Positions 1,242-52,194 of a DNA stretch of 64,000 nucleotides are shown here, piece by piece. The position numbers were made by a program, and so were the translations under genes. The DNA comes from Opitutaceae bacterium (lineage in GTDB: Bacteria > Verrucomicrobiota > Verrucomicrobiia > Opitutales > Opitutaceae). A model generated the notes under the pieces. That model was given only the letters and a program-made list of their open reading frames with translations. It was not told the origin of the DNA and did no database searches. The stretch covers positions 1 to 64,000 of the forward strand of contig JAUYAK010000043.1 of the NCBI GenBank assembly GCA_030693515.1. The letters are read 5' to 3'. Position 1 is the first letter of the stretch. The number at the start of each line of letters is the position of its first letter.

Positions 1242-3566
1242 TCAGAACTTGGTGCGCAGCGACAGCGTGATGTTGCGCAAGTTGGCGAAGTAGCCGTCGG
1301 TGCCGTCGCGGTAGAGCTTGTCGGCGACGTTTTTGACGTTGAGCTGCGCGGTGATGCGGCGGCCGCCGACCGTGAAGGCATACGAGGCCATCGCATCGTA
1401 AACCGTGAACGCCGGCATCATCACGCGGTTGAGCGGATCGCCAGAGAGGCGGGCGGACGAGCTGTGCCGGAGGCCGGCGCCAAGCGTAAGGCCCTTGAGT
1501 TCGCCGCTGGAGAATGTGTAGCGGTTCCAGAGCTTGTAGCTGGTGGTCGGATTGTAGCTCAGCGGGGCGCCGATGCGTGTGAGGTCATTGCTCTTCGTCA
1601 CCTCGGCCTTGGTGAAATGATTGTAGCTGAACATGAGCTGATAGTTGTCCGTCGGCGAGAGGTTGAAGTCCGCCTCGAGGCCGGAGGAGGACTCGGTGTT
1701 GCCGTAAACGAAGTAGGGGGAACGACCGGTGGAGGCTTCCCGGGCGACATCGCGGAAGGCGAGATTACCGCGCTCAAGATCGTAGTAGGTGATCGTGGAG
1801 ACGAGCCGGCCTTTCAGGAGCTCGGTCTTGAGGCCGAAGTCGGCGCTCTTGCTCTTGATGGGCTCGGCACCGTTGCCGTCGGCATCGATGCTGTAGTTGG
1901 GCTCGATGGCGCGGCTGCCGTTGGCGAAGACGGAGATTTCCGGCGTGAGCTTGAAGAGGATGGCAGCCTGGGGCGAGAGCCCGGGTTCCGCTTCGCCGCG
2001 CTGGCCATTGGTGACCGGCACGGAGTAGGTGTATTTCTGGGTGAACTTGGTGTAGCGCCCGCCATAGATCAGGAATAGCCGCTGGCTGAGGAAATTGCTC
2101 TGGCCGGCGAAGAAGAAGCCGTGCTGGTCCTCGATCGTGTGGCGATTGATGTTAAAATCCTGCCCGCTCGCGTTGAGACTCTGGTAAACGCTCGCGTAGG
2201 CGCCGAGTCCCGGGCGAAAATTTGTGACGAAGGAACCCAGCGGCGAGTTGTTGTATTGGCCGGCGGCGTTGCGATAGCCCGGGCGGAGAAAATCCACGCT
2301 CTGCAACTCCTGGCCCAGCATCCAAACATGGCGGCCGCCCGCGGCGTCGAAGCGCCAGTTGACGCGATTGTCGATGTTGTAGGAGTAGCGCTTATTGATG
2401 AAGCTCTCGGTCTGGAAACGCAGCGAACCGTCGGCGTAGGGATTGAGGTCGCCGTTGTTGGGCTGGATACCGGAGGTGTTGTCGTAGGCCCAGTTCAGGT
2501 TGGTCTGCCACACAAGGGACTTCGAAATCTTGAAAAGATAGTCGAGGTCGACGGTCTTGGAACGCTGAGTCTGGCGCGCATCAGACGTCAGGGAGACCGT
2601 GCGGCCTCGGGGATCGCGCGGGCCGTAGATCGGGGCGAAGATATCGAAGGTCGGGACAAAATTGGCGGCGAGCGCACTGGCGGAAAAGCCCTGGCTGTTG
2701 AGCCAATTCCGCATAGCGGTGGCGGCCGCGGTGGTGTTCTGGTTGACCGGAAAAGCGATTGCGGCGGGGTTGTTGAGCCAACGGGAATTCGTCACGGCAC
2801 GGCTGCCATAGGAAGACTGATAAAAGCGCGAGCGCTCGATGTTCTCGAACTCAAGCTGGACCGAGTGGCGATCGCCATGGCGCCAGGCGAACCCGACGTT
2901 GAGGAAGCGTTCGCGTAGATACTCGAAATCCTGGTCGCCACCCGCGTCGAGGACCGCGAGGCCCACGCTGTAGCCAAAATTTTTCGCGAGCGGCTGGTTG
3001 GTGTAGATCTCACCCTTGTAGTAGGAGTCCTGGCCGACCGCGAGACGCAGCTCGGTGCTGGCCTTCTGGTCGAGCTTGGGCCGGCGGGTGATGTAGTTGA
3101 TCACGCCACCCGGCCGCACGGTGCCGAAGAAAATACCTGCGGCGCCCTTGGCCACCTCGACGCGGTCGACGTTGTAGGTGGTGAAGAGCTGGCGGCGATA
3201 CTGGCCGTTGCGGTAGGAGATGAGACCGCTGAAGCCGCGCACGAGAAACGTGGACTCGTTACGCGGGCTGGTGCCGACACCGGGCACGTAGGTGAGAGCC
3301 TCGGAGAGCGTGTCGGCGGCGACATCAGAGATGAGTTCACTGGTGACCACCGAGATCGGGATCGGTGTCTCGCTGATCTTCATGCCGATGCCGGTCGCGG
3401 TGATGGAGTTCGTGGCGCGATAGCCACTCACGGTGGAATCGGAGACCGTGAACTCCTCGAGCTTGATGAGCTCGTCGCCGGAGCGGGCCGGCGACGGGGC
3501 CGTTTGGGCGGTGGCTAGGGCCGCGGTGAGAGCCAAGGGGAATCCGAGGGGAAGAATCTGCTTCAT
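1242..3566 (-). CDS. TonB-dependent outer membrane receptor (siderophore-receptor type)
   Basis: A 774-residue outer-membrane receptor driven by TonB. A signal peptide (1-20) is followed by an LEEFTVSD box at 36-43, which in Opitutaceae-like receptors sits where the TonB box is expected. The plug domain covers about 55-165 and holds the family signatures VEVAKGAAGIFFG and PGGVINYITRRP. The remaining 600 residues form the 22-strand barrel and end in a C-terminal Phe (LSLRTKF), as outer-membrane barrels do. By similarity class it resembles FhuA/FpvA siderophore receptors. In Opitutaceae, however, such receptors are often paired with LacI regulators and take up sugars. The divergent LacI gene 106 bases away and the sugar-binding protein downstream favour a carbohydrate here. 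The substrate is inference. Confidence 0.9.
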   Translation of the reverse strand: MKQILPLGFPLALTAALATAQTAPSPARSGDELIKLEEFTVSDSTVSGYRATNSITATGIGMKISETPIPISVVTSELISDVAADTLSEALTYVPGVGTSPRNESTFLVRGFSGLISYRNGQYRRQLFTTYNVDRVEVAKGAAGIFFGTVRPGGVINYITRRPKLDQKASTELRLAVGQDSYYKGEIYTNQPLAKNFGYSVGLAVLDAGGDQDFEYLRERFLNVGFAWRHGDRHSVQLEFENIERSRFYQSSYGSRAVTNSRWLNNPAAIAFPVNQNTTAAATAMRNWLNSQGFSASALAANFVPTFDIFAPIYGPRDPRGRTVSLTSDARQTQRSKTVDLDYLFKISKSLVWQTNLNWAYDNTSGIQPNNGDLNPYADGSLRFQTESFINKRYSYNIDNRVNWRFDAAGGRHVWMLGQELQSVDFLRPGYRNAAGQYNNSPLGSFVTNFRPGLGAYASVYQSLNASGQDFNINRHTIEDQHGFFFAGQSNFLSQRLFLIYGGRYTKFTQKYTYSVPVTNGQRGEAEPGLSPQAAILFKLTPEISVFANGSRAIEPNYSIDADGNGAEPIKSKSADFGLKTELLKGRLVSTITYYDLERGNLAFRDVAREASTGRSPYFVYGNTESSSGLEADFNLSPTDNYQLMFSYNHFTKAEVTKSNDLTRIGAPLSYNPTTSYKLWNRYTFSSGELKGLTLGAGLRHSSSARLSGDPLNRVMMPAFTVYDAMASYAFTVGGRRITAQLNVKNVADKLYRDGTDGYFANLRNITLSLRTKF

Positions 3567-7771: not shown

Positions 7772-9370
7772 ATGACGCCCCGCCCCACTCCCATCGCACC
7801 GTGCCTCGTCGCGCGTCTGCTCCTCGCGGGATTCATCGGCTGCATGAGCCAGGCCGCCGGGCTGCGGGCGCAGTCAGACTCGACGTTCGGCTCCGGTCGG
7901 AACAACGGCGACGGATTCTCCTCGATGGATCAGCCGCGTGCGCGCCCCATCTTCCTCTATTTCCCGCCTAGCCCGCCCCCGCTCGGCCAGATGATCCCCT
8001 CGGTCGGCCTGGCCTCGGGCCGCAACCCCGCGCCGGCCGGGCTCGCCGCATTCGTCAGCGACATTTTCTATCCTGCGCTCGGCGTCCGGCTGGCCTCGCA
8101 TTCATTGAGCGACAAACAACGCGACCGCCTCGACCGCTACCGCGCCGACAAGACTGCGCTCCAGCAAGAGCTCCGCGCCACCCTCGACAAAATTCGCGAC
8201 GCCGAACCCGCCGCGCGCGACCAGGAACTCGCGGCTCTCGCGCGCGCGCAGGCCCCGCGCCTCGCCGCGCTCGAGCAGGCCGCCGAAGACCTGCGCCGCG
8301 ATCTCGTCCACGGGGAGGAGACCTGGTCTGCTCTCCGCGAATGGCGCCTGGGCGAGCGCGTCGAGCGCGGGTTCTCGCCCAACGAGATTGCGCAGGTCAT
8401 GCGCGGCTACGCCTTCTACTCCCATGCCCTCACGCCCGCCCAGCGCCGGCTGCTCCGCGAAATCCACCTCGAACTCACCGCCGCCGCCCCAAACGCCACC
8501 CATGCCACCGCCGCGCAGCCCTATTTGTTTTTCCCGCCCGAGCCCGCGCGCGTGCTGCTGCCGGATGATCTGCCCGCCGAAGTCGCGGCCCAAATCGCCG
8601 CCTACCAGACCAAAAAATCGCGCCTAAAAAAGGAACTCTACGACGCCGTCTTCGCCGAGGAGCGGCTCAAGCTCAGCTTCCTCCGCGCCAGCCCGCTGAA
8701 GACTCTGGCCACCGCGCAAGAGCCGGCCCTCGCCGAACTCGAGGCGCTCGCCGAGGAAATCCGCCGGGGCCTCGTGCAGCATGCATCGCCCGCCGCGCTT
8801 GCCGAGCGCTCTCCTCTCCCGCCCACCCTGCAGGCCCGCGTCGGCGCGCTCATCGCCAGCCACACCTCCCTCCAGCGCGACGCATCCGCCCGGCTCAATG
8901 AGCTCTTCGCCGCCCACCGCGACGTCCCCATGCAAACCTCCGTGCGCTTCGATCCGGACGGACTGAGGGTCGTCGTGATCGCCGCACCGCCGGGTCGCGG
9001 GGGCGGCAAGAAACAGCCCGATGCCCCCGCGCGCATCGCGGCCGTGCGCGCGCAAGCTGCGGTGGTGGCCGACGACTACGGCCGGCAAATGGCCGAGATT
9101 GTAAACGAGACCAACGCCCTCCGCGTCGAGATCGCCCGCACTCTCGGCACCACCCGCGCGAGTGCCCTCGATGCCGCGTTTGCGGCGGCAACGCGCGTCG
9201 CCGCCGCGCGCGAAACCGCCGGGCTTTATGGCGACTATCGCGTCGCGGTCTTTCAGCCAGGCCTTTCACCCGCGCAACGCCGGCTGCTCCTTGATGGCGT
9301 CGTGGCCGCCCTGGCCCTGCCCCTGCCGCGGGGCGAGCCGCAACCCACGGGCCGCCTCAACCGGTGGTAA
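7772..9370 (+). CDS. Secreted protein of unknown function with internal repeats
   Basis: I do not recognise this 532-residue protein. It begins with a hydrophobic signal-like segment (residues 11-33). Two clear copies of a helical repeat follow: about 111-180 (SLSDKQRDRLDRYRADKTAL) and 266-336 (AAYQTKKSRLKKEL), each ending in LAALEQAAEDLRRDLV-like text. A weaker third copy starts near 348. Each of the first two is preceded by an aromatic-proline motif (FLYFPPSP, YLFFPPEP). LTPAQRRLL and LSPAQRRLL occur after copies one and three and look like the LTxxQ motif of Spy/CpxP periplasmic proteins, but this similarity is short. The Arg/Glu/Leu pattern predicts antiparallel helices. It stands alone, convergent with the next cluster. 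Confidence 0.7.
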   Translation: MTPRPTPIAPCLVARLLLAGFIGCMSQAAGLRAQSDSTFGSGRNNGDGFSSMDQPRARPIFLYFPPSPPPLGQMIPSVGLASGRNPAPAGLAAFVSDIFYPALGVRLASHSLSDKQRDRLDRYRADKTALQQELRATLDKIRDAEPAARDQELAALARAQAPRLAALEQAAEDLRRDLVHGEETWSALREWRLGERVERGFSPNEIAQVMRGYAFYSHALTPAQRRLLREIHLELTAAAPNATHATAAQPYLFFPPEPARVLLPDDLPAEVAAQIAAYQTKKSRLKKELYDAVFAEERLKLSFLRASPLKTLATAQEPALAELEALAEEIRRGLVQHASPAALAERSPLPPTLQARVGALIASHTSLQRDASARLNELFAAHRDVPMQTSVRFDPDGLRVVVIAAPPGRGGGKKQPDAPARIAAVRAQAAVVADDYGRQMAEIVNETNALRVEIARTLGTTRASALDAAFAAATRVAAARETAGLYGDYRVAVFQPGLSPAQRRLLLDGVVAALALPLPRGEPQPTGRLNRW

Positions 9371-9377
9371 AGCCGCC

Positions 9378-10688
9378 TCACTTGCCCGACTTCGGGAGCT
9401 TGCTGCGATAAATGGGCACGGATCGCGGCGCCGTCGGCTGCGCGTCATTCTGCTCGAAGCGCGTCCACCCCGCGTTGCCGATGTAGAAAAAATCGCCGCC
9501 GGTGCCCAGGCACCCGAGCGAAGGCGCGGCCATCGCGAGGTGGCCGGACTCCAGCACCTTCACCGCTGCGACGGAGTCCGCCGTCTCCTCAAGCTGGATG
9601 CGCAGCACGCGGCTGGGCCGCACCCCGTTCTGGACCCCAAGCACATGACCGCCGGGGGCCAGCGCCAGGCCGTCAATGCCGATGAGCGTGGTGTCCGCCG
9701 GCGGTTCCAGCCGCCGCACCTGCCGCGCCGCGAGATCGACCCGGAGCAGGCCGGCGGCAAAATCAGACACCACCGCGACGTCGCCCATGAGCACGATGCC
9801 TTGGACCGACATGAATTCGGCACTCTGAACCCAGGGCTCGAGGGCGGCGCCGCCCGGCGCGAGCCGCCAAAGGATCGGCGCGCCGCTGTCCGTGACCCAC
9901 ACCGTGCCATCGTCGCCCAACGCGAGATCGCCGAGCACATGCGGGTGCCGATCGCCAGGCCCGCCACCGGCCGGGAACAGGCGCCGCACCGCACCGCTCG
10001 CGAGGTCAATTTCGGCGAGCGCGGCGCGGCCTTCCAGCTCAGGGGCAAAACCCCGCATCGCCGGCACCGCGGAGGTCGCCGCCCAAATCGTCCCGCTCGC
10101 CTCGTCGATCGCCAGGCCGAATACCCCGAAGAGTTCGTCGTCCTCCGGGGTGAGCCGGCGCAGCGTCTCGTCCTTGCCGCGCACCCAGATGGCGCGGTGG
10201 TGGACATCGCCGAAGAGAAACTCACCCGTCTTCGCCCGCCACGCGATTCCCTCCATGAGACCGGTCACCCCGCGCAGCGAAAACGCGACCTCGCCCGAGC
10301 CCGAGGGATGGGCGTTGGCCGCGATTTTTTTCACGACGGCCTCAAAATCCTTGCGCGTTTTCAACGGCGCAAAATCCGCGGATTTTTCCACCGGCGAATT
10401 CACCCCGAGCCGCGCGAACCGGCCCAGTGTCGCGATCGCATCGTCGGGTTTTTCCGCCGCAACCTGCGCGGCGGCGAGGTTGATCAGCATGCGCGGGTAG
10501 TCGGGCCGCAGGGCGACCGCCTCCTCCATCTTGGCGAGATAGGTGGCGGTATCCTTCTCCTCAGCCGCAGCGGTCGCCTCGCGCGCGAGGCGGAGAGCCA
10601 GCGCCGTCTCAGACTCCGCTGCGCGGGTTACACTCACACCCACCATCGCCACAAGTGCGGCGGAAAGACTAAAGACCGAGAATCGCAC
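9378..10688 (-). CDS. Secreted TPR plus beta-propeller (SMP-30/NHL-like) protein
   Basis: The ORF track joins this gene to out-of-frame sequence of its upstream neighbour. The real gene most likely starts at the GTG at 10688, which gives a good signal peptide (RFSVFSLSAALVAMVGVSV, cleavage after TRA), a 436-residue product, and a 20-base overlap with the previous stop. Residues 25-100 look like a TPR unit (YLAKMEEAVALRPDYPRMLI). The rest has repeated blades typical of SMP-30/NHL six-bladed propellers, for example GLAIDEASGTIWAA, DLALGDDGTVWVTDS and GLALAPGGHVLGV. Propellers of this group are either lactone hydrolases or binding scaffolds; I cannot identify the metal ligands, so no reaction is assigned. 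It is the last gene of a four-gene leftward cluster. Confidence 0.72.
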   Translation of the reverse strand: MRFSVFSLSAALVAMVGVSVTRAAESETALALRLAREATAAAEEKDTATYLAKMEEAVALRPDYPRMLINLAAAQVAAEKPDDAIATLGRFARLGVNSPVEKSADFAPLKTRKDFEAVVKKIAANAHPSGSGEVAFSLRGVTGLMEGIAWRAKTGEFLFGDVHHRAIWVRGKDETLRRLTPEDDELFGVFGLAIDEASGTIWAATSAVPAMRGFAPELEGRAALAEIDLASGAVRRLFPAGGGPGDRHPHVLGDLALGDDGTVWVTDSGAPILWRLAPGGAALEPWVQSAEFMSVQGIVLMGDVAVVSDFAAGLLRVDLAARQVRRLEPPADTTLIGIDGLALAPGGHVLGVQNGVRPSRVLRIQLEETADSVAAVKVLESGHLAMAAPSLGCLGTGGDFFYIGNAGWTRFEQNDAQPTAPRSVPIYRSKLPKSGK

Positions 10689-11772
10689 GCAGCACCGCCA
10701 TCGCCATATCGATCGGGCTGCCGCCGCCACCGCCACCACCCGGCTGACCGGCGCCTCCGCCACTGGAACTGCCAGAGCTACTGCCGGATTGCCCGCCCTG
10801 CTGGCCGCCTTGTTGACCGCCTTGCTGCCCGCTGCCGGACTGCCCGCCGCCCTGCTGGCCGCCTTGGCTACCACCTTGCTGGCCGCCCTGACTGCCTTGG
10901 CCGCCTTGGCCGCCACCACCGACCGACGCAATTTTTTGCAGGCCACCTTTGCCCGCGCCGACGACGCCGTTGGGATCGCCTTCGTCCCCGCCTTCCCCGG
11001 CTTGACCGGATTTCCCACTCTTTCCGCTCTTGCCCCCGCGCCCGGACCCGTTCTCACCCGCCCCGGCGTTGTCGGCCAGCCCACCGCTCCCATCGCCCGC
11101 ACCGTCGCCCTTGCCACCCGTGCCCGATTTGCCCGCGCCGTCTTTGCCCTCGGCCCCGGCTCCGGTGCCAGCGCGGATTTTATCGTCCATCGCGCCAAAG
11201 GCGTAGTCATCCTTCGCATTTGGAGTCCCATCGCCATCAATGTCGTCATCCTGGTCGTTCGGGATGCCATCGCCGTCCATGTCGTTGTCCTTGGAATTGG
11301 GAATGCCGTCGCCATCAAGGTCGCCGTCGGGTCCGCTGCGGCCGTCGGCGGAGATACGGCCCAGTTCGGGGGCGCCGCCGCCTCCGCCGCCTTCACCCCG
11401 CCGGCCCATCACGCCGGAAAACGTGAAGCGCACAAAATCGACCTGGCTCGTGTTAAGCGTGGCCCGGTGGCGGATCGCGGCGTCGCGCACGGTCTCCATC
11501 TCCCATTTGCGGCGGCGCGCCTCCTCCCGGTCCGCGATCGGGCCGAAGAGGCAGATGAGGTTTTCGTGACGGTAGCGGACATACCAGCCCTCGTCGCTCG
11601 GAGCGAGGCCGGTCGCATTGATGCCGGCATATTTGCCGCGAAATTCCTCTGCCGGCATCAGCATCAGATCAGGAATCGCCTCGACAGGATAGATAACCGT
11701 GGTCGCGCGGGCCAACGATGCAAAGCCTGCCGCGAGCGCGAGGCCGAAAAGGACAGTGGAGAGGGTTTTCAC
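10669..11772 (-). CDS. Secreted protein with TSP3-like aspartate repeats and Gly/Gln-rich tail
   Basis: The 367-residue product has a signal peptide (1-23, ending LARA) and an unrecognised N-terminal domain of about 95 residues. Around 147-189 come three consecutive DxDGDGxPN units (DLDGDGIPNS, DMDGDGIPND, DIDGDGTPNA). This is the thrombospondin type 3 pattern that binds calcium. From about 205 to 355 the sequence is low-complexity Gly, Ser, Gln and Lys (GGQQGGQQGG blocks), probably disordered. The short hydrophobic end, MAMAVLRAILGL, is unusual. The architecture suggests a cell-surface or matrix protein. It lies 23 bases after the other Gly-rich gene and overlaps the next one, so it belongs to the same transcript. 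Function unknown. Confidence 0.75.
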   Translation of the reverse strand: MKTLSTVLFGLALAAGFASLARATTVIYPVEAIPDLMLMPAEEFRGKYAGINATGLAPSDEGWYVRYRHENLICLFGPIADREEARRRKWEMETVRDAAIRHRATLNTSQVDFVRFTFSGVMGRRGEGGGGGGAPELGRISADGRSGPDGDLDGDGIPNSKDNDMDGDGIPNDQDDDIDGDGTPNAKDDYAFGAMDDKIRAGTGAGAEGKDGAGKSGTGGKGDGAGDGSGGLADNAGAGENGSGRGGKSGKSGKSGQAGEGGDEGDPNGVVGAGKGGLQKIASVGGGGQGGQGSQGGQQGGSQGGQQGGGQSGSGQQGGQQGGQQGGQSGSSSGSSSGGGAGQPGGGGGGGSPIDMAMAVLRAILGL

Positions 11773-11795
11773 GCGGAGGGAAATGCAGGGATATC

Positions 11796-12650
11796 CTACA
11801 GGCCGGCGGGAATCGCCCGGCCCTTTTCGACGCGATTGCCGGACTGCACCCCGGTCGGGGCCCGGCCACCAGTGCCAGTGCCCTTCTCGTGATGCTGAGT
11901 GTTGCCGGCCTGCTGTTGCGCGTTGGCCCCCGTGGCTCCGGCCATCCCCGGAGTAGGCTCGATGCGCATCGCGGAATCGCCGATGGTAACGGCGGAAGGT
12001 TTGCCATCCGGAGCACCAGCGGGATTGTTGCCGGCGGCTGTTTCACCCTGAAGCCCGCCAACCTGTGCACCGCCCGGCTGACCGCCACCCTGCGCGCCGC
12101 CTTGCTGGCCGCCCTGCTGGCCCGGCGGTTGACCGGCCTGCTGGCCACCTCCGGCCCCAGCCCCCCCGAGGGGATTGGGAATCTGCGGCAACCCGGCGCC
12201 CTGCTGCGCGGGATCGATGCCGAGGCCGCCGCCCGGGGGCAGTCCGGGCAAGCCACCTTGGCCGCCGGGCACCCCCATCGCACTCGGCAGACCGGGAAGA
12301 CCCGGCACGGAAATCTGTGGTGTTTTCTGCCCTTGATTCGGCTGCGTGCCGCTTCCGCCCGGACCATTGCCACCGACTTTGCCCGGGTTGGCATTCTCGT
12401 CGCCCGGCAATTCAAAGTCCCCGATCATGCCGTGCTCGGATTTTTTTGCGACGGGATGAGTCGAGCCATCCAACAAAGCCGGATCAGGCACCGGCCCACG
12501 GGCGGTGCCGCGCGCAGACGAGGATTTCGTCGCAGCGGTCGAGCCCGGCCGCGAGGAAGACGCCGGCGCATCAGCCGCCAAGGCTGCGCCCGAAAGCATG
12601 CAGCCGACGATGACACACGCGACCAAGGGACGGGAAGAAGTAAAGCGCAT
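11796..12650 (-). CDS. Secreted Gly/Pro/Gln-rich low-complexity protein
   Basis: A 284-residue protein with a signal peptide (about 1-25, GAALA before ADAP). A Ser/Thr-rich linker follows, then a long Gly/Pro/Gln-rich region (about 85-215, for example GGQQGGAQGGGQPGG) and a polar C-terminus. It shares the GQQGG composition with its downstream neighbour, suggesting both work in the same extracellular or periplasmic structure. No catalytic motif or known domain is visible. It lies 9 bases after the TPR membrane protein gene, so the two are almost certainly co-transcribed. Confidence 0.7.
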   Translation of the reverse strand: MRFTSSRPLVACVIVGCMLSGAALAADAPASSSRPGSTAATKSSSARGTARGPVPDPALLDGSTHPVAKKSEHGMIGDFELPGDENANPGKVGGNGPGGSGTQPNQGQKTPQISVPGLPGLPSAMGVPGGQGGLPGLPPGGGLGIDPAQQGAGLPQIPNPLGGAGAGGGQQAGQPPGQQGGQQGGAQGGGQPGGAQVGGLQGETAAGNNPAGAPDGKPSAVTIGDSAMRIEPTPGMAGATGANAQQQAGNTQHHEKGTGTGGRAPTGVQSGNRVEKGRAIPAGL

Positions 12651-12659
12651 GGGGAGAGA

Positions 12660-14369
12660 TCAGCCGCGGGAGATCGAGACCGTGCATGCGACCGTGACGG
12701 TCGGCGGCGTCGTGCCACTGCGGACTTGGAGGAGCATCTCGACATCGCGATAGCCCTTGCGGCTACCTATGACTTGATAGTCGCCGGGGAGCATCTTGAT
12801 GACATTGGTCTCAAACTTGGATGGCTGCCGGAAATTGGCGATCCGGACCCAAGTATTGCCGTCGGACTTGAAGGTCACCTCGACCGGCTTGTTCTGCGCC
12901 ATGAGGAGCGCATGCAGTTGCTGCACCCGATCGCTGTTGACGAGGTAGGACGGCTTCACAGCCATGGCCTCGTTGAACCGTTTGATGGCGGATTGAAACT
13001 CGGCTTTGTTGGCAAATTGCTCGGCGGCCTCAATGTATTTCTCGTATTGGAGGAGCGCACGAATGACGGTGCCGGCGCGGGTATAGCCTTCCTTTGCGTC
13101 GGTGTTTTCCGGCTCAAGCTCAAGCGTCTCGTTATAAGCTTCGCGGGCTTCGCGCCATTGGAAGGCCTTCTCGTGCGTGAAGCCGCGGGCCAGCGCTTTT
13201 TGCACCGACTCCTTGTGCGCGCTCTCCCGGGCCGACTTGAGCAAAGCCTGCACGTCAGTCTTCTGCGGATAGACTTTCAGCGCGGCCTGATACTCGGCGA
13301 TGGCCTTCGTCCAATCCTTCTCCTTTACAGCGGCGTCGGCGGCATTCTTGGCACTGGCAAACTTGGTCTCCTTCTCGAGCCGGCTCGCGCGCGACTGGCC
13401 CTCCTGCGCGGCCGCCGACTGGCCGTCGAGGGCAAAGGCTTTCTTGTAGGATTCGGCCGCATCAGCGAAACGCGCCTCCTGTTCGAGCTTCGCGCCCTGC
13501 TGCAGCAGCGCATAGACGCGGTCGATGTTCTCGGCGCGCTTGAGTCCGGCGACGGCAATTTCGTTGCCGGAGGATTTCTCCAGCGCCGCCTGAAACGCCT
13601 GCTGCGCTTCCGCTTTCTCACCCCGGGTGAGGGCGCGCTGGCCGGCCACGAGGCGATCGCGCACATGGTCGGCAAGGAGTTCCTCGGCTCGTTTCAACTG
13701 CGCAAACCCGGTGTCGAAGACTTCTTTCGCGCCGATGAAATTGCCTTCGCTGAGCAGACGGTTGCCGGCGGCCGCGGCAGAAAACGCCTCGTCCAACGCC
13801 TCGGGGGCGAGCGGACGCGCGACCTCGAGTTCCCTCACCCGGAGAAGAATCTTGTGGTAGGCCTGCTGCGCCTCGCCCCGGATTTTGACGTTGGCGCTGA
13901 ACGCCTCGATGTCGCTGCGCAGGGCCTCGAACACTTGCAGCGCACGACCCCACTGGCGCTCCGCAAGGAGATGTGAACCCGAATTGTAATCGGTCTCCAT
14001 GCGCACCAGTTCCTGCACCTGCCGCGGGTGATCGGCCGGCATGCGCCGCAGCTCGCCCAGTGACTTGGTCGCAAGATCGCGCAGCTGCTCGGCCTTGGTC
14101 TGGGCGCGAAACGATGCGTTCGCGTCGGCCACCGTCTCGCCCTCCGCCATCGCCGTAACGCGGGACGAAAACACCTCAGGACCGAAGACGAGCTTGATGC
14201 CGCGGATGACAAGGCCCGCGCACAGCAGCAAAGCCACGAAACCACCGAAACCCCAAGCCAAGATGCGCGGCACGGTCCATTTCGATCGCGCCTGCTCGCG
14301 ACCGGCGTCCGGGTTCCAATGAATGATACGGCGTTTTTTCGCGGAATTATGATCGGGTTCCTCGGCCAT
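12660..14369 (-). CDS. Membrane-anchored TPR protein with C-terminal PEGA-like domain
   Basis: The 569-residue product has a basic cytoplasmic N-terminus, one membrane helix (about 36-58, ILAWGFGGFVALLLCAGLVI) and then a helical region with several TPR-type units. Examples are AIAEYQAALKVYPQKTDVQA, AREAYNETLELEPENTDAKE and AIKRFNEAMAVKPSY. The last 80 residues are beta-rich with the PEGA-like pattern LPGDYQVIGSRKGYRDVEM. Both tail regions should lie outside the inner membrane. TPR scaffolds of this form often organise envelope or surface complexes. It heads a four-gene leftward cluster with two Gly-rich secreted proteins and a propeller protein, so it may be their assembly platform; that role is inference. 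Confidence 0.75.
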   Translation of the reverse strand: MAEEPDHNSAKKRRIIHWNPDAGREQARSKWTVPRILAWGFGGFVALLLCAGLVIRGIKLVFGPEVFSSRVTAMAEGETVADANASFRAQTKAEQLRDLATKSLGELRRMPADHPRQVQELVRMETDYNSGSHLLAERQWGRALQVFEALRSDIEAFSANVKIRGEAQQAYHKILLRVRELEVARPLAPEALDEAFSAAAAGNRLLSEGNFIGAKEVFDTGFAQLKRAEELLADHVRDRLVAGQRALTRGEKAEAQQAFQAALEKSSGNEIAVAGLKRAENIDRVYALLQQGAKLEQEARFADAAESYKKAFALDGQSAAAQEGQSRASRLEKETKFASAKNAADAAVKEKDWTKAIAEYQAALKVYPQKTDVQALLKSARESAHKESVQKALARGFTHEKAFQWREAREAYNETLELEPENTDAKEGYTRAGTVIRALLQYEKYIEAAEQFANKAEFQSAIKRFNEAMAVKPSYLVNSDRVQQLHALLMAQNKPVEVTFKSDGNTWVRIANFRQPSKFETNVIKMLPGDYQVIGSRKGYRDVEMLLQVRSGTTPPTVTVACTVSISRG

Positions 14370-14637: not shown

Positions 14638-15453
14638 ATGAACGCACCGGCCCGCCTCCTCGCCTCCGCCTTTTCCGTCCTGGTCCTTGCCTCGTGCTAC
14701 CAAGTGCCCGTGACAGGCAGAAACGCGATCAACTTGGTTGATGACAAAGAGCTCACCAAGATGAGCATCACGATGTTCGACGACCAGAAGCGCCGCACCA
14801 AAATCTCCCGTGATCCTGAGCGCCTCGCCCAGCTCCAGCGGGTCGGCGAACGCATCTCCAAGGTGGTATTCTGGGACATGCCTGATGCCGACTGGGAGTT
14901 TGTCGTTTTCGACAGTCCCGAGGTCAATGCGTTCGCGATGGCCGGGGGCAAAGTCGGGGTTTACACCGGCCTGTATAAAGTCGCGAAGACCGACGACGAG
15001 GTCGCCGCGGTCATTGCCCATGAAATCGCCCACGTGACCGCCAAACATGTGCATGAGCGCCTCTCCCGCGACTTGGCGGTGCGCACGGTCGGGGCGGTCG
15101 GCATGATCGGCGGAGCGGTCGCCGGTGCGCCCGGCCTCACCATCGACATGCTGGGCGCGGCCTACGGGCTTAGCACGGAACTCGGCGGCTTCGCTTATGA
15201 TCGCCGCGCCGAGAAGGAGGCGGATTATATCGGCCTCATGTATATGGCCCGCGCCGGCTACGATCCACGCGCGGCCATTCAAGTGATGGAGGCGCTCGAC
15301 GCCCAATCGTCCAACGAACCGATGCCACCCGCCTTTCTATCCACTCATCCCACCGGCCCCGAACGCATCATCCAACTCATGGACGCCATGCCCAAGGCCC
15401 TTGAGGAAATGGAAAAAAGCACCTACCGCACCGGCCCCAAGATCGTGAAGTAA
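14638..15453 (+). CDS. M48-family metalloprotease lipoprotein
   Basis: A zinc protease of the LoiP/BepA-like M48B group, active in the periplasm on envelope proteins. The ATG at 14638 gives 271 residues with a clear lipoprotein signal (LASC, Cys20). It carries the zinc motif HEIAH at 128-132 and the third-ligand region AEKEAD at 191-196. The NAFAMAGGKVGVYTGL stretch before the HEIAH helix is a hallmark of the group. There are no C-terminal TPRs, so it is LoiP-like in size rather than BepA-like. It stands alone and ends at a strong shared terminator. Confidence 0.92.
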   Translation: MNAPARLLASAFSVLVLASCYQVPVTGRNAINLVDDKELTKMSITMFDDQKRRTKISRDPERLAQLQRVGERISKVVFWDMPDADWEFVVFDSPEVNAFAMAGGKVGVYTGLYKVAKTDDEVAAVIAHEIAHVTAKHVHERLSRDLAVRTVGAVGMIGGAVAGAPGLTIDMLGAAYGLSTELGGFAYDRRAEKEADYIGLMYMARAGYDPRAAIQVMEALDAQSSNEPMPPAFLSTHPTGPERIIQLMDAMPKALEEMEKSTYRTGPKIVK

Positions 15454-18966: not shown

Positions 18967-21108
18967 TCAAAATGGCGCACCCACCGAGATCTGCCAGGTT
19001 CCGCCGGGATCGCCCGCGCGCGGATTCAGGTTTCGTCCATACTCCACCCGAATCGGCCCGATCAGCGTCTGATAACGCACCCCCAGCCCCGCCGTGTAGA
19101 GGCGTTCGCCACCCCAGGGGTAGTTGCGGAGCTGCGCCGCCGTCGCCAGTGCATCACCGAAGACCACGGCCGTCCATTTCCCGAATAACGCCTGCTCCAG
19201 CTCGAGGTTCGCGAGCCCGTAGCTCTTCGCGCCGATGAAGCGCCCGTCCGCCCCACGCGGCGACGCTTCGCCGTCCCGATAGCCGCGGATGCTGCTCCCG
19301 CCGCCCGGAAAAAAACGCTTGTTCACCGGCAGCAGCCGATCGCTGGTCCCCCACGTTGTGATGACGCCGTGCGTCACCGCCGCATGCACCCAGCGGCCCG
19401 CGCCCCAGGGGGTGTGATACGCACCGCCGCCCTCGAAGCGCTGAAACTCCGCACTGCCGCCGAGCCCACGGCTCGCCGCCTCGACCTGCGCAAACCAGCG
19501 GTAGCCGCGCCGCGGTCGCAGCGGATTGTCGCGCCGGTCGCGCGTCAGCCCCACGTCGAGGCTGGCGACCGTGACCTGCTTGTCGTCCACCGCCCGCGTC
19601 GCCAGCTCGTTGTCGCGATTGCGCAGCGCCTGAAACGTGTAACCGGCGGTGGCGTGCGCACCGAGCCAGCGCACCGGCAAACTCACCGCCACGTTCGCAC
19701 CGTATTCCTGGCGGAGAAACGACAGCTCCTCGCGTTGCAATCCGAACACCCGCGCGGTGCCGTCGATCGATTCCCCGAAAATCTCGGGCACGGTGTAGGA
19801 ATAGTCGCCCCGGCTGCTCTTCATCGATTGGGCCAAAAGGAGGCGGGTCTGGTGCGCGCGCCCGAACAGATTGAACTGCCGCAGCTCCACCGCCCCGCGC
19901 GCCTGCTCGTAGCTGCCGTAGCCGAACAGCAGGTTCGTCTCCAGTGTCCGCCCTTCGCGCACGGTGAACACGGGGCTGCGCACGGGTCCGTCCGGCGGAT
20001 CGTAGCGCAACGCCACTTTCTCGAACACGCCGAGGCGCGCCAGCCGGAACCTCGCCTGATCGATTTCCAGCGGGTTGAGCAGCTGGTCGGGTTGCGCGTG
20101 CACCCGCCGCCGCAGCACGGCTTCGTGCATGTGCTCCGCGCCTTCGAACCGCACCTCGCCGAGCCGCACCCGTTCGCCTGGCTCCACCCGCAGCGTCACG
20201 GTCGCGTCCTTTCGCCCATCGCGCGCCGGTCCCGCCGTGCGCGTCGCCTGCACGCGCACATCCGCATAGCCTTGCGCAAAAAAGGCCTTTCTCACTTCGC
20301 CCGCCAGGCTCTGCTGCACCACCTCGGTCCACAGCTTGCCGGAAAATTTCTCCAAACCTTCCACCATCACGCCCGTGGCCTCCGCTCCCTCGATCCGCAC
20401 CGCGCCCACCTGCCACCGCGCACCTTCCGCCACCACCACTGCGATCACGACCTCTCCGGTGCGCTCATCGACAGCCACATCGCTGGCGCGGACTTCCGCC
20501 TCGGCATAACCGAGCTGGCGCAACTCCGCCTGCAGCCCATCCAGGGCCCGCGACAACCGCGCCGGCGTATAGGCGCGGGCCGCCTTCCCGGAAAAGAGCG
20601 CCGAGTCGCCCGCAAAAAAACTCCGGGCGACGTTTTCCTTCAGCGCGTCCAGTCCCGCGAACGTCACGTCCCGCACAAAAAACCTCACGCCCCGCTTCAC
20701 GTTGAAACGCACCTCCCGCGCCGCCATCGTCCGAGGCACCGTCGCTGTCATCGTCTGGTCGAGCGTGATCGCTGTTTTTTTCCCGTCCGCTTCGATACAC
20801 TCCATGGCAATCACAGGTTTCAAAAAACCCTCCGCCTGCACCGCAGACATCAGTAGAAACATCGCGTCCTCCACCGCATTGGCCCGTAGCACCTCGCTCC
20901 GCTCGTCGCCGAGCAGCCGCTCCAACGAAGCCCTCAGCTCGCGGTCCCGCAGCCAACCCGTTCCTGCCACCGTCAACGTCGCCGGCGTGGGGCCTTTCGC
21001 GCCCGGCGTCGAGCATGCGGACATCGCTCCGGCGAACAAGCCCACCAGAGCTAGCCACAGGCCGAGGGCTGGCTTGCGCCTGCCGTATTGCTTGCACGTA
21101 TGCGTCAT
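18967..21108 (-). CDS. TamA/BamA-superfamily outer membrane protein, lipoprotein-like (TamL type)
   Basis: A 713-residue Omp85-family protein. POTRA-like units fill roughly residues 100-380 (for example VRFNVKRGVRFFVRDVTFAG, VGAVRIEGAEAT, VRLGEVRFEGAEHM). The C-terminal barrel holds the conserved SSIRGYRDGE lid-loop motif and ends in Phe (ISVGAPF). The start at 21108 overlaps the TamB stop by ATGA, so the two are translationally coupled and form the Tam module that inserts or supplies outer-membrane components. Unusually, the N-terminus looks like a lipoprotein signal (LVGLFAGAMSAC, Cys32), as in the TamL variant of Bacteroidetes. The ORF track's 15 extra residues lie inside tamB. Confidence 0.88.
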   Translation of the reverse strand: MTHTCKQYGRRKPALGLWLALVGLFAGAMSACSTPGAKGPTPATLTVAGTGWLRDRELRASLERLLGDERSEVLRANAVEDAMFLLMSAVQAEGFLKPVIAMECIEADGKKTAITLDQTMTATVPRTMAAREVRFNVKRGVRFFVRDVTFAGLDALKENVARSFFAGDSALFSGKAARAYTPARLSRALDGLQAELRQLGYAEAEVRASDVAVDERTGEVVIAVVVAEGARWQVGAVRIEGAEATGVMVEGLEKFSGKLWTEVVQQSLAGEVRKAFFAQGYADVRVQATRTAGPARDGRKDATVTLRVEPGERVRLGEVRFEGAEHMHEAVLRRRVHAQPDQLLNPLEIDQARFRLARLGVFEKVALRYDPPDGPVRSPVFTVREGRTLETNLLFGYGSYEQARGAVELRQFNLFGRAHQTRLLLAQSMKSSRGDYSYTVPEIFGESIDGTARVFGLQREELSFLRQEYGANVAVSLPVRWLGAHATAGYTFQALRNRDNELATRAVDDKQVTVASLDVGLTRDRRDNPLRPRRGYRWFAQVEAASRGLGGSAEFQRFEGGGAYHTPWGAGRWVHAAVTHGVITTWGTSDRLLPVNKRFFPGGGSSIRGYRDGEASPRGADGRFIGAKSYGLANLELEQALFGKWTAVVFGDALATAAQLRNYPWGGERLYTAGLGVRYQTLIGPIRVEYGRNLNPRAGDPGGTWQISVGAPF

Positions 21109-24100
21109 TTTTTGTCCGACTCCTTCGTTCCACCCTTCGAGAATACCCGCCATTTCAGCCCGACGTTGAAATCGTCGAATTCGTCATACTCCCCCACGGC
21201 GGTCCACCGCTCGCTCAGCCGGTATTCGATGCCATAGGTCTCGCGCCCCTGCCGTGAAACATTCTCGCCGGTCGAGATGCTCAGCCGCTCGCTCGCGTCG
21301 CTGTCGCCCCCGAAGCTCGCGAGCAGGCTCTGCCCGAGAAAAGCCCCGAGCCGCGCCATCCTTTGCCGGTCCGAGGCGTTGAACTCGTCGTGCGGGGACT
21401 CGCCCGTCATCACCATCAGCAGCACCTGCCCCGACTCCAACGGCGGGCTCGACGAAAAAACCAGATTCGGCGCCGAGGCGGGCCCGCTCGCTTCCATGCG
21501 CAAATCGTAATTCATGCGGCGCACCGTGCCCACGAACCACACCTGCGGATCGACGCCCTGCTCCGGGGTCAGGCTCACCCGGCCCTCCTGCACCACAAAC
21601 GTCGCGAAGGGCAGCTTCACGGTCCCCTCGTCGATCGTCGCTTCGCCTCGCGCCAGCGGCTCGCCCAGCGTGCCGCTCAGTTGAAACCGGGCCGAGGCCA
21701 AGCCGTTGAACAACGCGGTGCGCAGTTTCAAAAACTTCTCGCCCTGCACCGCCACGTCGAGCCGCCACGCGTCGTAGGGCTCGGCCTCCACCGCAAAATA
21801 GGGCGGCGTCCGTGCCTTGGACCTCGCGCCGCCCGGCAACAGCGCCCGCAGATCCGACAGAAACAGGCTCTCGCGCAGGCGCACCGCCCCCGCGATCAAC
21901 GGCGGCCCGCTCGCGGGCGAGGTCAGCTTCAAATCCAGATCGCCGCGCACCAGCACCCCAGTCTGACGCACAAAAGGCAGGTTTTCCCCTTTTAACGCCA
22001 AATCGAATTTCAACCCGTCCACCATCGCGGCGGCATTCCCCTCCGCGACGACCGGCAGTTCCACGCTCCCGCTCAACGTCACCGTCTGTCCGCCGGTCTG
22101 CGCCGTCACCGAGCGCAATTCCATCTTGCGCCCGACCAGAGCGACCTCCGCGCTGATCTCCTGCAACACTCCGAGCGGCCCGAGTGGACGCGTGGCCGCA
22201 TCGCGGAGTCGCAGCATGCCGTCCAAGGCTCCGTTCCGGAAGCTGACGTCGACGGACAATCGGCCTTTCGGCGCCACGAACACCGGCAAGAAGCGCGCCA
22301 CGGCCGCCACATCCGCATCGGGCACTTCAATTTTCCCCTCCGCCCCGCCCTGCAGCGCCAGCATCGGCTTCGTCAAAAATTCGCGCCACTTCCCCTCCGC
22401 CACCGGCAGCCGCCCGCTCGCGCGCACCGCCTGGCCCTCGACGCTCAGCGAAAGCTTCTCCAACCGCACCCCGGCCTCGTCTCCGGTCAGCTCCATCGCC
22501 AGGGCCTCGATCGTAGGCATCGGCCGTTTGAAACGAGTCGCATCCGCCGCGACGCGCGCCGCCTTCACGCGCACCGTCCCCTTCGGCCGCGCCCACGTGC
22601 CCGTGACGTGCGCCTCCGCCTCCGGGTCCTTGAGTTCGAAACCGGTGAGACCTTGCAACTCCTGCCAGAAGGCGGCGCCCGCCTCCGTCGTCACGTCGAG
22701 CATGAGCGCTCCCTCCGGCTCAAGCTCCACGGGCTGCGCCGCGCCCGGACTCAAACGCAGCGGAATCCTTCCGACGACTTTAACGACGCTCTTCTCCGCC
22801 TCGATGACGCTCAGCTCCTCGATGCGGACCCCACTCTTGTCGCCCTGTGCCGTCGCGGCGATGATCGCCGACTTTCCATCGCCCAGTTCGATCGCCGCCT
22901 TCGTTTTCAGGGAAAAAATCATCGGCCCGCGATCCCACGCGCCTTTGGCCTCCAGTGAGGACACCTTCCACGCCGGCCCGGACCACAGCTCCAGATCGTC
23001 CAACCAAGCGGAGGAAAAGTTTCGCACCGACATTTCCACCCGGCCGGTCTCTCCCCACGAGAGGGCCGCCTCGACCGCGCCTTCCGGCCCCGCCAGATGC
23101 AGCGCCTCCACCGCGAGGGCCGGCCGCCACCGGAGCATTGCGGGCTCTTTTAACTGCAACCGCATGTCGTCCCCTTGGACCAGCTCCAGTTTCGTCAGCC
23201 GCGCGGATTGCCCGCTCGACGCCCCTTCCGCCGTGATCGTCGTCGCACCCGCCTTTGCCACTAGGCGTATCGATTCCATCGTCGAGCCGCTACCTGCCCA
23301 AGTCAGGGCAAGCCCGAGCGGCTTCAGCGCCCGAAATGTCACCTTCTCGGCCTGCGCTTGCCCGGCATGCTTCAAACCCATCGGTGCTCCAGTTGCCTCG
23401 GCCTTGAGCGTGATTGACTCGAACTCCACGTCCGCCGGCACCCAGCGCGCCACCGTCGCGCGCCGAATCGTTCCCTCGGCCGCGGCATCGAAAATCTCTT
23501 TCGTCGAAAAATCCCACCCACCTCGCCAAGTGAGTTTCTCACCTGTGGTCCCCGCGAGCGTGCCCTCACTGACCTTCACGCGCGGCCAGTCGAATTGTCC
23601 CTTCGCCTCGACCAGCGAGGCCGCCCAATCCGCCGCCGCCACATCGCGCCCCGTCAGTCGAAATTCCACCACGGGTGCTTGTCCGAGGCTTGAGACCCAC
23701 CGCGCCTCGCCGCTCACCGCGCCCTTGGCCGTAAACCAGGGTTGTTTCTCCAAGTCCGCCTCCAGGGAAAACCGCGCGCCGCTCTGCCGGAATTTTCCAC
23801 TGCGCTCCACCGTCACGGGCTCGGTCAGTCGTGCGACGATGCCCGGCAAATCTGCGTTCAGCGATTCCACGGTGAACGCCTCCGCATCGCCTTGGCCGCG
23901 CAATGTCACCTCGAGCGGCGGCACCGTTTTTCCACTCACGGGTTCACCCTTGGCCACGAAATCCGCCACGAGCTTCTCCCCCCGCCACTCGATTTTCCCG
24001 CGACCGCGCACCGCCTCATACGCCGCCCCGAGCTTCAATTTCTCGCCGGGCACATTCCAATCCTCCGCCTGCAACACCACCTCGGCCGGCAGCCAGCCGC

Positions 24101-24764
24101 GCTCGTCAAAGCGCGCGTTCAGCTCGGCCCGCTGGCCCCACCATGTCAGTTCACCTTTCACGTCTGCACCCCGTCCCACCAGCGTCGCCCCGCCGTCCGT
24201 CGCACGTGCCTCGACCCGCAGCGCATCCGGCGCAAACGCGACCGACACATCCGCCTTGAATTCATGAAACGCGAGCGCCTTCACCGCCAGCGTGCGCTCC
24301 GCCCAAAGCGCCGCCCCGCACGTCAGCTCGCCGCCCGGCCACCGCACCACACCCGCTTCCGCCGAGACCCGCGGCGCCCAGCGCGCAAGCTGCGCCGCGA
24401 TTTTTTCCAACGTGGCGCGCAGCGGCATCCATCCGCGATTCGCCGGGTTCACGGGAACGTCGGCTTTGCGTTCCGCCACGTCGACGGTCCACTGCCCCAC
24501 GACCACCTGGCCGCGCCGCCACCAGGCCACGAGCGGCGTGTCCGCCTCGATCCGCGATGCCGTCACACGGACGCCCGGCACTTTCAGCTCCGCCCCATGC
24601 AGGGCGAACCGGGTATAGCCAATCCGCTCGTAGCGCGCAAACGTCAGCCCGCGCGAGGCGCCCGCCCCGCCCAGCGCCGCGCCCAGCCACCACGGCAGCG
24701 TCGCCGCGCCCAGCATGAGCACGGCCACCGCAATGGATAAAATAATGAGAAGACGGCGGCGCAT
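21105..24764 (-). CDS. tamB: TamB-like translocation/assembly protein (AsmA-like)
   Basis: A 1219-residue protein with one N-terminal membrane helix (about 5-30) and a long beta-rich periplasmic body. The C-terminal DUF490/TamB domain is recognisable by DPQVWFVGTVRRMNYDLRM, the segment NLVFSSSPPLESGQVLLMVM and the closing YGIEYRLSERWTAVGEYDEF. TamB-like proteins form a groove between inner and outer membrane and are thought to help lipid transport or barrel assembly with TamA. It lies directly upstream of the TamA-like gene with an ATGA overlap and 29 bases after the M3 peptidase gene. The ORF of 713 residues on the opposite strand is a GC shadow. Confidence 0.88.
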   Translation of the reverse strand: MRRRLLIILSIAVAVLMLGAATLPWWLGAALGGAGASRGLTFARYERIGYTRFALHGAELKVPGVRVTASRIEADTPLVAWWRRGQVVVGQWTVDVAERKADVPVNPANRGWMPLRATLEKIAAQLARWAPRVSAEAGVVRWPGGELTCGAALWAERTLAVKALAFHEFKADVSVAFAPDALRVEARATDGGATLVGRGADVKGELTWWGQRAELNARFDERGWLPAEVVLQAEDWNVPGEKLKLGAAYEAVRGRGKIEWRGEKLVADFVAKGEPVSGKTVPPLEVTLRGQGDAEAFTVESLNADLPGIVARLTEPVTVERSGKFRQSGARFSLEADLEKQPWFTAKGAVSGEARWVSSLGQAPVVEFRLTGRDVAAADWAASLVEAKGQFDWPRVKVSEGTLAGTTGEKLTWRGGWDFSTKEIFDAAAEGTIRRATVARWVPADVEFESITLKAEATGAPMGLKHAGQAQAEKVTFRALKPLGLALTWAGSGSTMESIRLVAKAGATTITAEGASSGQSARLTKLELVQGDDMRLQLKEPAMLRWRPALAVEALHLAGPEGAVEAALSWGETGRVEMSVRNFSSAWLDDLELWSGPAWKVSSLEAKGAWDRGPMIFSLKTKAAIELGDGKSAIIAATAQGDKSGVRIEELSVIEAEKSVVKVVGRIPLRLSPGAAQPVELEPEGALMLDVTTEAGAAFWQELQGLTGFELKDPEAEAHVTGTWARPKGTVRVKAARVAADATRFKRPMPTIEALAMELTGDEAGVRLEKLSLSVEGQAVRASGRLPVAEGKWREFLTKPMLALQGGAEGKIEVPDADVAAVARFLPVFVAPKGRLSVDVSFRNGALDGMLRLRDAATRPLGPLGVLQEISAEVALVGRKMELRSVTAQTGGQTVTLSGSVELPVVAEGNAAAMVDGLKFDLALKGENLPFVRQTGVLVRGDLDLKLTSPASGPPLIAGAVRLRESLFLSDLRALLPGGARSKARTPPYFAVEAEPYDAWRLDVAVQGEKFLKLRTALFNGLASARFQLSGTLGEPLARGEATIDEGTVKLPFATFVVQEGRVSLTPEQGVDPQVWFVGTVRRMNYDLRMEASGPASAPNLVFSSSPPLESGQVLLMVMTGESPHDEFNASDRQRMARLGAFLGQSLLASFGGDSDASERLSISTGENVSRQGRETYGIEYRLSERWTAVGEYDEFDDFNVGLKWRVFSKGGTKESDKK

Positions 24765-28738: not shown

Positions 28739-28829
28739 CGCCGCCGGGGTAGCAGGCACTGCGACAAAAACAAGCCTCTGTTTATGGAGACTTACGGTTC
28801 TAGTTAACAATGCCGCCGACACTCAAATG

Positions 28830-50059: not shown

Positions 50060-51532
50060 CTACGCCGCGCAGCAGCTTAGTTTTTTCACATCTTTGCCAA
50101 ACGACAGGGAGGCCAGCTTGATGCCTTCGCTGAGCGTCAGGTAGGGATGAAACGCCGACGCCAGCTCCCGCACGGCGATGCCGTGCCGGATCGCGAGCGC
50201 GGCCTCCATGAGGAGTTCGCCGCCTTCCGGCGCCAGGATTCGCGCGCCGAGGAGCCGGTCGGTTTTCCGGTCGCGGATCAGTTGAATGAATCCGCGCGTG
50301 TCGCGCGCGGCGAGCGCGCGCGGCACTTGCGAGAGCGGGACCGTGCTGGCCTCGGCGTCGTGGCCGGCGGCTTCCGCCTGCACCAAATCGAGGCCCACGC
50401 CCGCGACTTGCGGATCGACGAAGACCACCCACGGCAACGCCGTGTAGTCGCGCGAACGGGCGGCCCCCGTGAGCGCGTTCTCGGCGGCGAGAGCGCCTTC
50501 GTAAGCCGCGGTATAGACGAACATCGGTTCGCCGATGACATCGCCCGCCGCGTAGACCCCTGGCACCGTGGTGCCGAGGTGATCGTCGGTCCGAATGAAG
50601 CCATCCGCATCTACCTTCACGCCGACTTCTTCAAGGCCGAGCCCGTCGGAGTTGGGTGTGCGTCCGGTGGCGAGCAACAAGTGGCTGGCGCGAAAGACCT
50701 CGCGCTGTCCGTTGACGACAGCTTCCACGGCGACCCCGGGGCCATCCTTGAAGACACGCTGCACGGCGACGCCCGTGACGATACCCAGACCTTCCGCCTT
50801 CAGGTGGGCCGCAAGTTCCTCCGTCAACCCGGGCGATTCCGTGGGCAAAATGCGCGTCGAGCGTTGGACCACGGTCACACGGCTGCCGAGCCGGGAAAAA
50901 ATCTGTGCGCACTCCAGCGCGACATAGCGCCCGCCCAGCACGAGCAGCGACTCGGGCAGCTCGTTCAACTCAAACGCCGACTCGTTGGTGAGGAAGGGCA
51001 CGTCCGCGAGTCCGGAAATGGCGGGCACCGACGGCCGGGCTCCCGTGCAAAGCAGCACGGCATCGCCGCTGAGGCGCCCGCCATGGACCTCGACGGTGCG
51101 GGCGTCGATCAGCCGGCCCCGGCCGGGGATGAACTTGATCTTGGGATCGTCGCCGATCACGTCGGCGTATTTGGCTTGGCGCAACGCCTCGACGAGTTCG
51201 TGCTTCTGGCGAATGACGGCGGCGAAATCAGCCAGTTGGCCCGTCGTCTCGATTCCCGCGAAGCGGCCCGGCGATTGGACACGATTCAAAGCCTCCGCGG
51301 CGCGCAGGAGCGTTTTGGACGGCACACAGCCGACATTCACGCACGTGCCGCCCATCGGCAGCCCGTCGTTGATGATCGTGGCGCGGGCCCCGAGGCCCGA
51401 GGCCTTGAGCGCGGCGGAAAACGCCGCGCCGCCACCGCCCACGATCAGGAGGTGTTTGTCGGCGGTCTGCGTCGCGCGGGCCTCGGTGACGGAGGCGGGG
51501 GAAGTTTGGTCGGTGGAGCAGCAATCGGACAT
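50060..51532 (-). CDS. merA: Mercury(II) reductase
   Basis: A 490-residue FAD disulphide reductase that reduces Hg(II) to Hg(0) with NADPH in the cytoplasm. The redox pair is Cys64/Cys69 in GGTCVNVGCVPSK. The C-terminal vicinal cysteines that pass mercury into the active site are in KKLSCCAA (487-488), the feature that separates MerA from lipoamide dehydrogenases. The N-terminal HMA metal-binding domain of long MerA forms is absent; instead the protein starts MSDCCS with a second vicinal pair. It follows merTP by 24 bases on the same strand. Confidence 0.95.
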   Translation of the reverse strand: MSDCCSTDQTSPASVTEARATQTADKHLLIVGGGGAAFSAALKASGLGARATIINDGLPMGGTCVNVGCVPSKTLLRAAEALNRVQSPGRFAGIETTGQLADFAAVIRQKHELVEALRQAKYADVIGDDPKIKFIPGRGRLIDARTVEVHGGRLSGDAVLLCTGARPSVPAISGLADVPFLTNESAFELNELPESLLVLGGRYVALECAQIFSRLGSRVTVVQRSTRILPTESPGLTEELAAHLKAEGLGIVTGVAVQRVFKDGPGVAVEAVVNGQREVFRASHLLLATGRTPNSDGLGLEEVGVKVDADGFIRTDDHLGTTVPGVYAAGDVIGEPMFVYTAAYEGALAAENALTGAARSRDYTALPWVVFVDPQVAGVGLDLVQAEAAGHDAEASTVPLSQVPRALAARDTRGFIQLIRDRKTDRLLGARILAPEGGELLMEAALAIRHGIAVRELASAFHPYLTLSEGIKLASLSFGKDVKKLSCCAA

Positions 51533-51556
51533 ACGGAGATGGGTTGAGGGTTTTGC

Positions 51557-52145: not shown

Positions 52146-52151
52146 GGTTAC

Positions 52152-52183: not shown

Positions 52184-52194
52184 AGGCCTGTCTC

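Follow-up and report, generated by a model that had tools for sequence, protein, structure and literature searches.

The window analysed here is a stretch of 64,000 nucleotides from an Opitutaceae bacterium. It carries a group of four leftward-reading genes, and the first-pass annotation had described these as closely packed, two neighbouring pairs lying 9 and 23 bases apart and a third overlapping by 20 bases; the open reading frames confirmed this arrangement. The genes encode a TPR scaffold protein, a Gly/Gln-rich secreted protein, a secreted protein with a conserved N-domain and TSP3-type units (the YFGP-domain/TSP3 protein), and a secreted TPR/propeller-like protein. An M48 metallopeptidase lipoprotein is encoded beside them (Table 1). 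The first three genes are referred to as the trio below.

Table 1. Genes and features of the locus, with positions in the 64,000-nucleotide window.
Feature	Position	Strand	Basis
M48 metallopeptidase lipoprotein gene (BepA/LoiP-like)	14638..15453	+	divergent neighbour of TPR gene
TPR scaffold gene, 569 aa	14369-12660	-	ORF call
TPR protein topology: cytoplasmic N-tail, one membrane helix, periplasmic solenoid, C-terminal beta-domain			Pfam, model, orthologs
TPR N-terminal motif KKRRIIHWNP, ahead of membrane helix	14310..14339	-	conservation
TPR predicted membrane helix, residues 33-62	14184..14273	-	model secondary structure, hydrophobic sequence
TPR C-terminal beta-domain, residues 495-562	12684..12887	-	conservation, model
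Gly/Gln-rich secreted protein gene, 284 aa	12650-11796	-	ORF call
Gly/Gln N-terminal motif PDPALLDG	12465..12488	-	kept in distant orthologs
Gly/Gln end-anchored C-terminal tail EKGRAIPAGL	11799..11828	-	kept in distant orthologs
YFGP-domain/TSP3 secreted protein gene, 367 aa, GTG start	11772-10669	-	ORF call
Conserved N-domain, residues 22-125 (GWYVRYRHENL..FGP)	11398..11709	-	29 orthologs
Three DxDGDGxPN units, lineage-specific linker	11206..11322	-	sequence motif
TSP3 protein hydrophobic C-terminal tail SPIDMAMAVLRAILGL	10672..10719	-	conserved end
Secreted TPR/propeller-like protein gene, 436 aa, GTG start, accessory not core	10688-9378	-	ORF call

The description of the first protein as a single-pass TPR protein was upheld by a Pfam TPR_2 match (E=3e-10) and by an AlphaFold model (pLDDT 85) with one membrane helix, a TPR-type solenoid and a terminal beta-domain. 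The KKRRIIHWNP motif is kept across the genus and in most of the distant orthologs aligned, and the beta-domain is among the most conserved parts of the protein across families. The C-terminal end had also been called PEGA-like, but Pfam gave no PEGA match there, and the label is therefore a fold-level guess only. A fold search with the model returned mainly generic TPR solenoids; weak NCBIfam matches to TraC and Amuc_1098 were likewise taken as generic TPR similarity. Of the 27 genus genomes searched, only G022 lacked the protein, and orthologs occur in other families of the order as well.

The Gly/Gln gene stands directly after the TPR gene in 25/25 genus loci fetched, and its product has no match to a Pfam family. 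The Gly/Gln richness is not conserved, since one distant ortholog is rich in K, N, S and E and the composition shifts between lineages. Constant among the orthologs are a PDPxLLDGS motif near the mature N-terminus and an end-anchored tail; additional internal motifs are conserved within the genus. The tail closes the protein with [IVMF]-P-x-[GDE]-[LI] (IPAGL in this genome), with Leu or Ile as the last residue and Pro as the third counted from the last residue but one.

Wherever the contig of a genus locus extends far enough, the gene for the TSP3 protein follows the Gly/Gln gene. The three DxDGDGxPN units reported earlier are present, and in this the protein resembles TSP3/calcium-binding repeat proteins; unlike these, it has no Pfam match, the TSP3 model included, and the units are missing in distant orthologs. 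They number 0 to 9 among orthologs, with none in one genus member and in all other-family orthologs examined. The constant part of the protein is the N-domain of ~100 residues, modelled with a pLDDT of 81 and the element order b-a-b-b-a-b, for which a Foldseek comparison with PDB folds gave no match (best E 0.45). The succession of secondary-structure elements fits a SPOR domain, yet neither Foldseek nor Pfam supports membership (2/29 members match Pfam SPOR, weakly, with E=0.11 at best), and the assignment to SPOR is doubtful. In most members the protein ends in a hydrophobic C-tail, which the genus has kept and which has similar counterparts in some distant orthologs. Both the Gly/Gln and the TSP3 protein, as we infer from their sequences, seem to consist of variable linkers between conserved ends for docking.

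The expectation that all four genes would stay together in relatives was borne out for the first three, which keep their order in every genus member with a contig long enough. Because the trio is intact and ordered wherever genus contigs reach far enough, the clustering of the TPR, Gly/Gln and TSP3 genes exceeds chance. The tie drawn earlier between the TPR gene and two low-complexity secreted proteins is thus a strict linkage, and an envelope complex of the TPR protein and the low-complexity proteins is likely. The propeller gene, on the other hand, turned out to be optional, an accessory and not the core part that it was taken for; it occurs in 10 other genus loci, and several loci without it have room for it. 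A sub-threshold Pfam match to SMP-30/SGL (E=0.033) is what the propeller call stands on, and the TPR matches of this protein in Pfam are also sub-threshold. A secreted protein of 532 aa is encoded at 7772-9370, convergent with the propeller gene, and among the genus loci compared it has a match in G018 only (81%).

A second cluster encodes a TolQ/MotA-like channel, an Hsp70-fold protein (ACT), two VWA proteins (VWA1 and VWA2) and two lipoproteins; it is called the motor cluster here. In the window genome (G000) it lies on a separate contig (C44, ~60.2-66.4 kb), and the connection of the trio to the motor is hidden there because the motor half lies elsewhere. In three other genomes (G040, G033 and G043) and in the genus members G003, G005 and G025, the trio is convergent on TolQ-ACT-VWA1-VWA2, and in G023 the two groups are ~5 kb apart. 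The coordinates of VWA2, the N-domain and TPR are adjacent in further family members. In most linked loci, genes for a DUF4136-like and a glycine-zipper lipoprotein are divergent to TolQ. Besides its trio-linked cluster, G033 contains a second, more divergent TolQ-VWA1-VWA2 cluster (L088, G033:C300:15000-32000).

The TolQ-like gene on C44 (L077) matches MotA_ExbB in Pfam (E=3e-14) and is followed by ACT, VWA1 and VWA2. The profile of the TolQ-like protein matches a solved TolQ structure, and its alignment contains two invariant Thr residues, in GTVRG and FNxT, which would line the lumen of a pentamer. Both VWA1 and VWA2 start with a FSLSFLDCxxCGFGAVILLFVL helix, the Asp of which is invariant in both alignments. 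The two are distinct families, adjacent in nearly all complete loci; DTSGSM is invariant in VWA2, and the first Asp of this motif is missing from VWA1 in most members. None of the cluster genes scanned matched PF02472 (TolR/ExbD), and VWA1 and VWA2 match VWA models. Searched as a profile against the PDB, VWA2 yielded weak matches only, mostly to coiled coils. The ACT profile matches Hsp70 ATPase chains (E=8e-8), and some members have an FHA domain.

The presence of TPR and of VWA2 agreed in 55/57 relatives, both exceptions being incomplete genomes (Fisher p=4e-14 for all relatives and 1e-5 for those outside the genus, p-values that ignore shared ancestry). Among 289 evenly sampled genomes of the phylum, the N-domain was found in 18 and VWA2 in 18, with an overlap of 17 (p=3e-25, which again ignores shared ancestry); G158 and G175 break the pattern. 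Strong VWA2 matches were counted in this sample and weak coiled-coil matches were not, and TPR profile matches with E above ~1e-10 in the phylum search were set aside as generic TPR proteins. Within the genus, G022 is without TPR, VWA2, the N-domain, the DUF4136-like parts and the TPR-linked M48 copy, a joint absence suggestive of an independent event there.

In every genus locus with room, a distance of 144-322 bases separates the M48 gene from the TPR start, the two genes being divergent, and a divergent M48 gene beside the TPR gene is also found in another genus (G033). In G022, which has no trio, the only M48 copy is a generic paralog. An M48 gene occurs near VWA2 in many gammaproteobacterial operons too, and we regard the M48 metallopeptidase lipoprotein as a probable member of the system.

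When named genomes were scanned with VWA2, the close relatives among the matches listed were in metagenome-assembled genomes labelled Opitutus or Opitutaceae, and the distant relatives among them were in Gammaproteobacteria, Desulfobacterales, Myxococcales and Vicinamibacteria. The gammaproteobacterial carriers among the matches listed were Halieaceae, Pseudoalteromonas, Microbulbifer, Bowmanella and Peristeroidobacter. Outside the phylum, in Gammaproteobacteria and others, the genes for TPR, a PEGA-repeat protein (recognised by eye), a small secreted protein, TolQ, ACT, VWA1, VWA2 and lipoproteins typically stand in one operon, often joined by an M48 peptidase gene; operons of this kind are widespread in Gammaproteobacteria. 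No YFGP-domain gene turned up in the gammaproteobacterial loci examined, and this gene is therefore not universal.

In Gammaproteobacteria the place of the Gly/Gln gene is occupied by the small secreted protein, mostly ~70-140 aa long, which ends in FPxDI. The tail [FY]xP[ST]ExIxxDxx[VI]xFPxDI was present in 44/47 small proteins from non-phylum loci, as compared with the ends of 3/3926 background ORFs; the count is a recount with a denominator and a background, an earlier list of tails having been selected by the motif itself. G043 exhibits an intermediate order, with TPR, a PEGA-like repeat protein, a 128-aa protein ending in FPADI, and the N-domain protein. Given this arrangement, the Gly/Gln protein is read as a putative expanded form of the small tail-motif subunit, on the grounds of position, secretion and tail. 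The repeat protein between TPR and the small tail protein in G043 (L055, G043:C27, 5805-9690) was judged PEGA-like by eye, and the PEGA-like repeat protein of G043 and of gammaproteobacterial loci is absent at this place in the window genus.

The observed gene order, conservation, co-occurrence and motor-type sequence features led us to propose that the trio, together with the M48 protein, forms the periplasmic arm of a proton-driven trans-envelope motor, the core of which is encoded on contig C44; we assign this reading a probability of about 0.72. As to the exact role of the tethers and the cell process served, we infer a machine that would draw on the proton gradient and pull or rotate something in the space that separates the two membranes. 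A TolQ-like pentamer would surround a VWA1/VWA2 dimer in a 5:2 arrangement, with the proton-binding Asp carried by the membrane helices of the dimer. Proton flow would turn the dimer and thereby move the periplasmic VWA domains, with the TPR protein as an inner-membrane scaffold beside the motor. The Gly/Gln and YFGP/TSP3 proteins may act as flexible periplasmic tethers that pass the motion on to outer-membrane lipoproteins, a role that we suggest tentatively and rate at somewhat under even odds. Docking would be by their conserved ends, namely the IPAGL/FPxDI tail of the one and the folded N-domain and hydrophobic C-tail of the other. Cytoplasmic control of the motor may fall to the Hsp70-fold/FHA protein, and maintenance of the outer-membrane end to the M48 protease. 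Against the proposed motor it can be held that its two halves are unlinked in the window genome and some relatives, and that the homology between the Gly/Gln and FPxDI proteins is argued from position and a short motif.

In its most general form the proposal would describe a complete and widely distributed trans-envelope motor system of about nine proteins, in which a VWA rotor is coupled outward by a disordered secreted tether and not by an arm of the TolA/TonB type. The tether would dock via its absolutely end-anchored tail, which is FPxDI in Gammaproteobacteria and IPxGL in Opitutaceae, with a VWA metal site or the TPR groove as a possible docking place. We consider this generalisation speculative and rather doubtful.

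That the Gly/Gln and TSP3 proteins are cargo instead of tethers is the main rival to the proposed motor arm; they would then be no motor parts but secreted or surface proteins that the motor carries along the surface or through the outer membrane. Both have signal peptides and long low-complexity stretches, like exported adhesins, and the repeat number is variable, but every locus has just one copy of each beside the scaffold gene, and their end-anchored motifs are kept over great distances. The gammaproteobacterial counterpart, at mostly ~70-140 aa, is moreover small for a surface protein, and we judge the cargo role to be unlikely. The motor might also be a gliding or surface-motility machine, which would be compatible with the preferred explanation: in Agl-Glt of Myxococcus, too, one TolQ-like and two TolR-like proteins occur with TPR envelope proteins (PMC3169522). 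Here, however, VWA partners are found instead of the TolR/ExbD fold (PF02472), and no match to a Glt family was obtained, so that gliding is improbable. It further counts against it that the hosts include bacteria that, to our knowledge, are not known to glide.

The physical separation of trio and motor in the window genome and several relatives is what would be expected of an independent envelope operon found together with the motor for no reason other than shared ancestry. Both are missing from G022, inside the genus, they occur together across families, and in several genera they are directly adjacent, all of which makes such independence very unlikely. The first-pass annotation had favoured a matrix or surface system, with the TPR protein assembling a pair of low-complexity proteins that bind calcium. 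The strict linkage of the TPR gene with the two low-complexity genes is in line with it and the DxDGDG units could bind calcium, but neither these units nor the Gly/Gln richness is conserved, and the linkage and co-occurrence with a proton motor would be left unexplained; we find this reading scarcely credible.

A class of motors named TPH-vWA was described in 2025 (Mol Biol Evol) from Proteobacteria and Verrucomicrobia, in which paired vWA proteins with a TolR-like helix are predicted to form 5:2 motors with TolQ-like pentamers and for which no function is known (PMC12204202). The class is characterised by a TolQ-like gene beside a heterologous vWA pair with an Asp-bearing TolR-like helix (PMC12204202). 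Judged by sequence, the motor half described here belongs with it, as the channel gene is next to the vWA genes, the pair is heterologous, the helix Asp and the Thr residues are conserved, and no tolR/exbD was found among the genes scanned. In the passages of PMC12204202 consulted, Opitutaceae, an Hsp70-fold partner, the tail motif, YFGP, lipoproteins and M48 are not mentioned for the class, and a TPR gene is noted beside a different vWA family. New here are the linked TPR, tail-motif, YFGP-domain/TSP3, M48 and lipoprotein partners and the split arrangement. In the open-access literature on the gene set, on 5:2 rotary motors and on Opitutaceae with TolQ (subscription papers and preprints being outside the scope) no other description was recognised.

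Conservation thus yields a partner list, comprising the TPR scaffold, end-tail protein, YFGP-domain protein, Hsp70/FHA protein, lipoproteins and M48, for vWA motors that were predicted without a known function. The list makes the system testable, since the operon is carried by cultured hosts (Pseudoalteromonas denitrificans, Microbulbifer and Seongchinamella unica). The case also illustrates how a subunit can escape notice when its locus is split and its low-complexity sequence changes fast.

Two further systems were compared. A TolQ-type channel and coupling of two membranes are shared with Tol-Pal; neither cluster contains a recognisable TolA, TolB or Pal gene. Genes resembling TolB occur elsewhere, in relatives with and without the motor system, and a replacement of Tol-Pal is therefore ruled out. 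Weak matches to ZorA of the Zorya (ZorAB) defence system (E ~1e-4) came via the shared channel domain, the other proteins gave none, and this candidate was rejected.

Other genes of the window were noted in passing. A mercuric reductase-like gene adjoins a gene for a small membrane protein resembling MerT (50060-52244), the second half of which looks frame-shifted. Adjoining minus-strand genes at 18967-24764 resemble those for an Omp85/TamA-type and a very large TamB-like protein, and two genes, at 1242-3566 and 26906-28822, read as TonB-dependent receptors.
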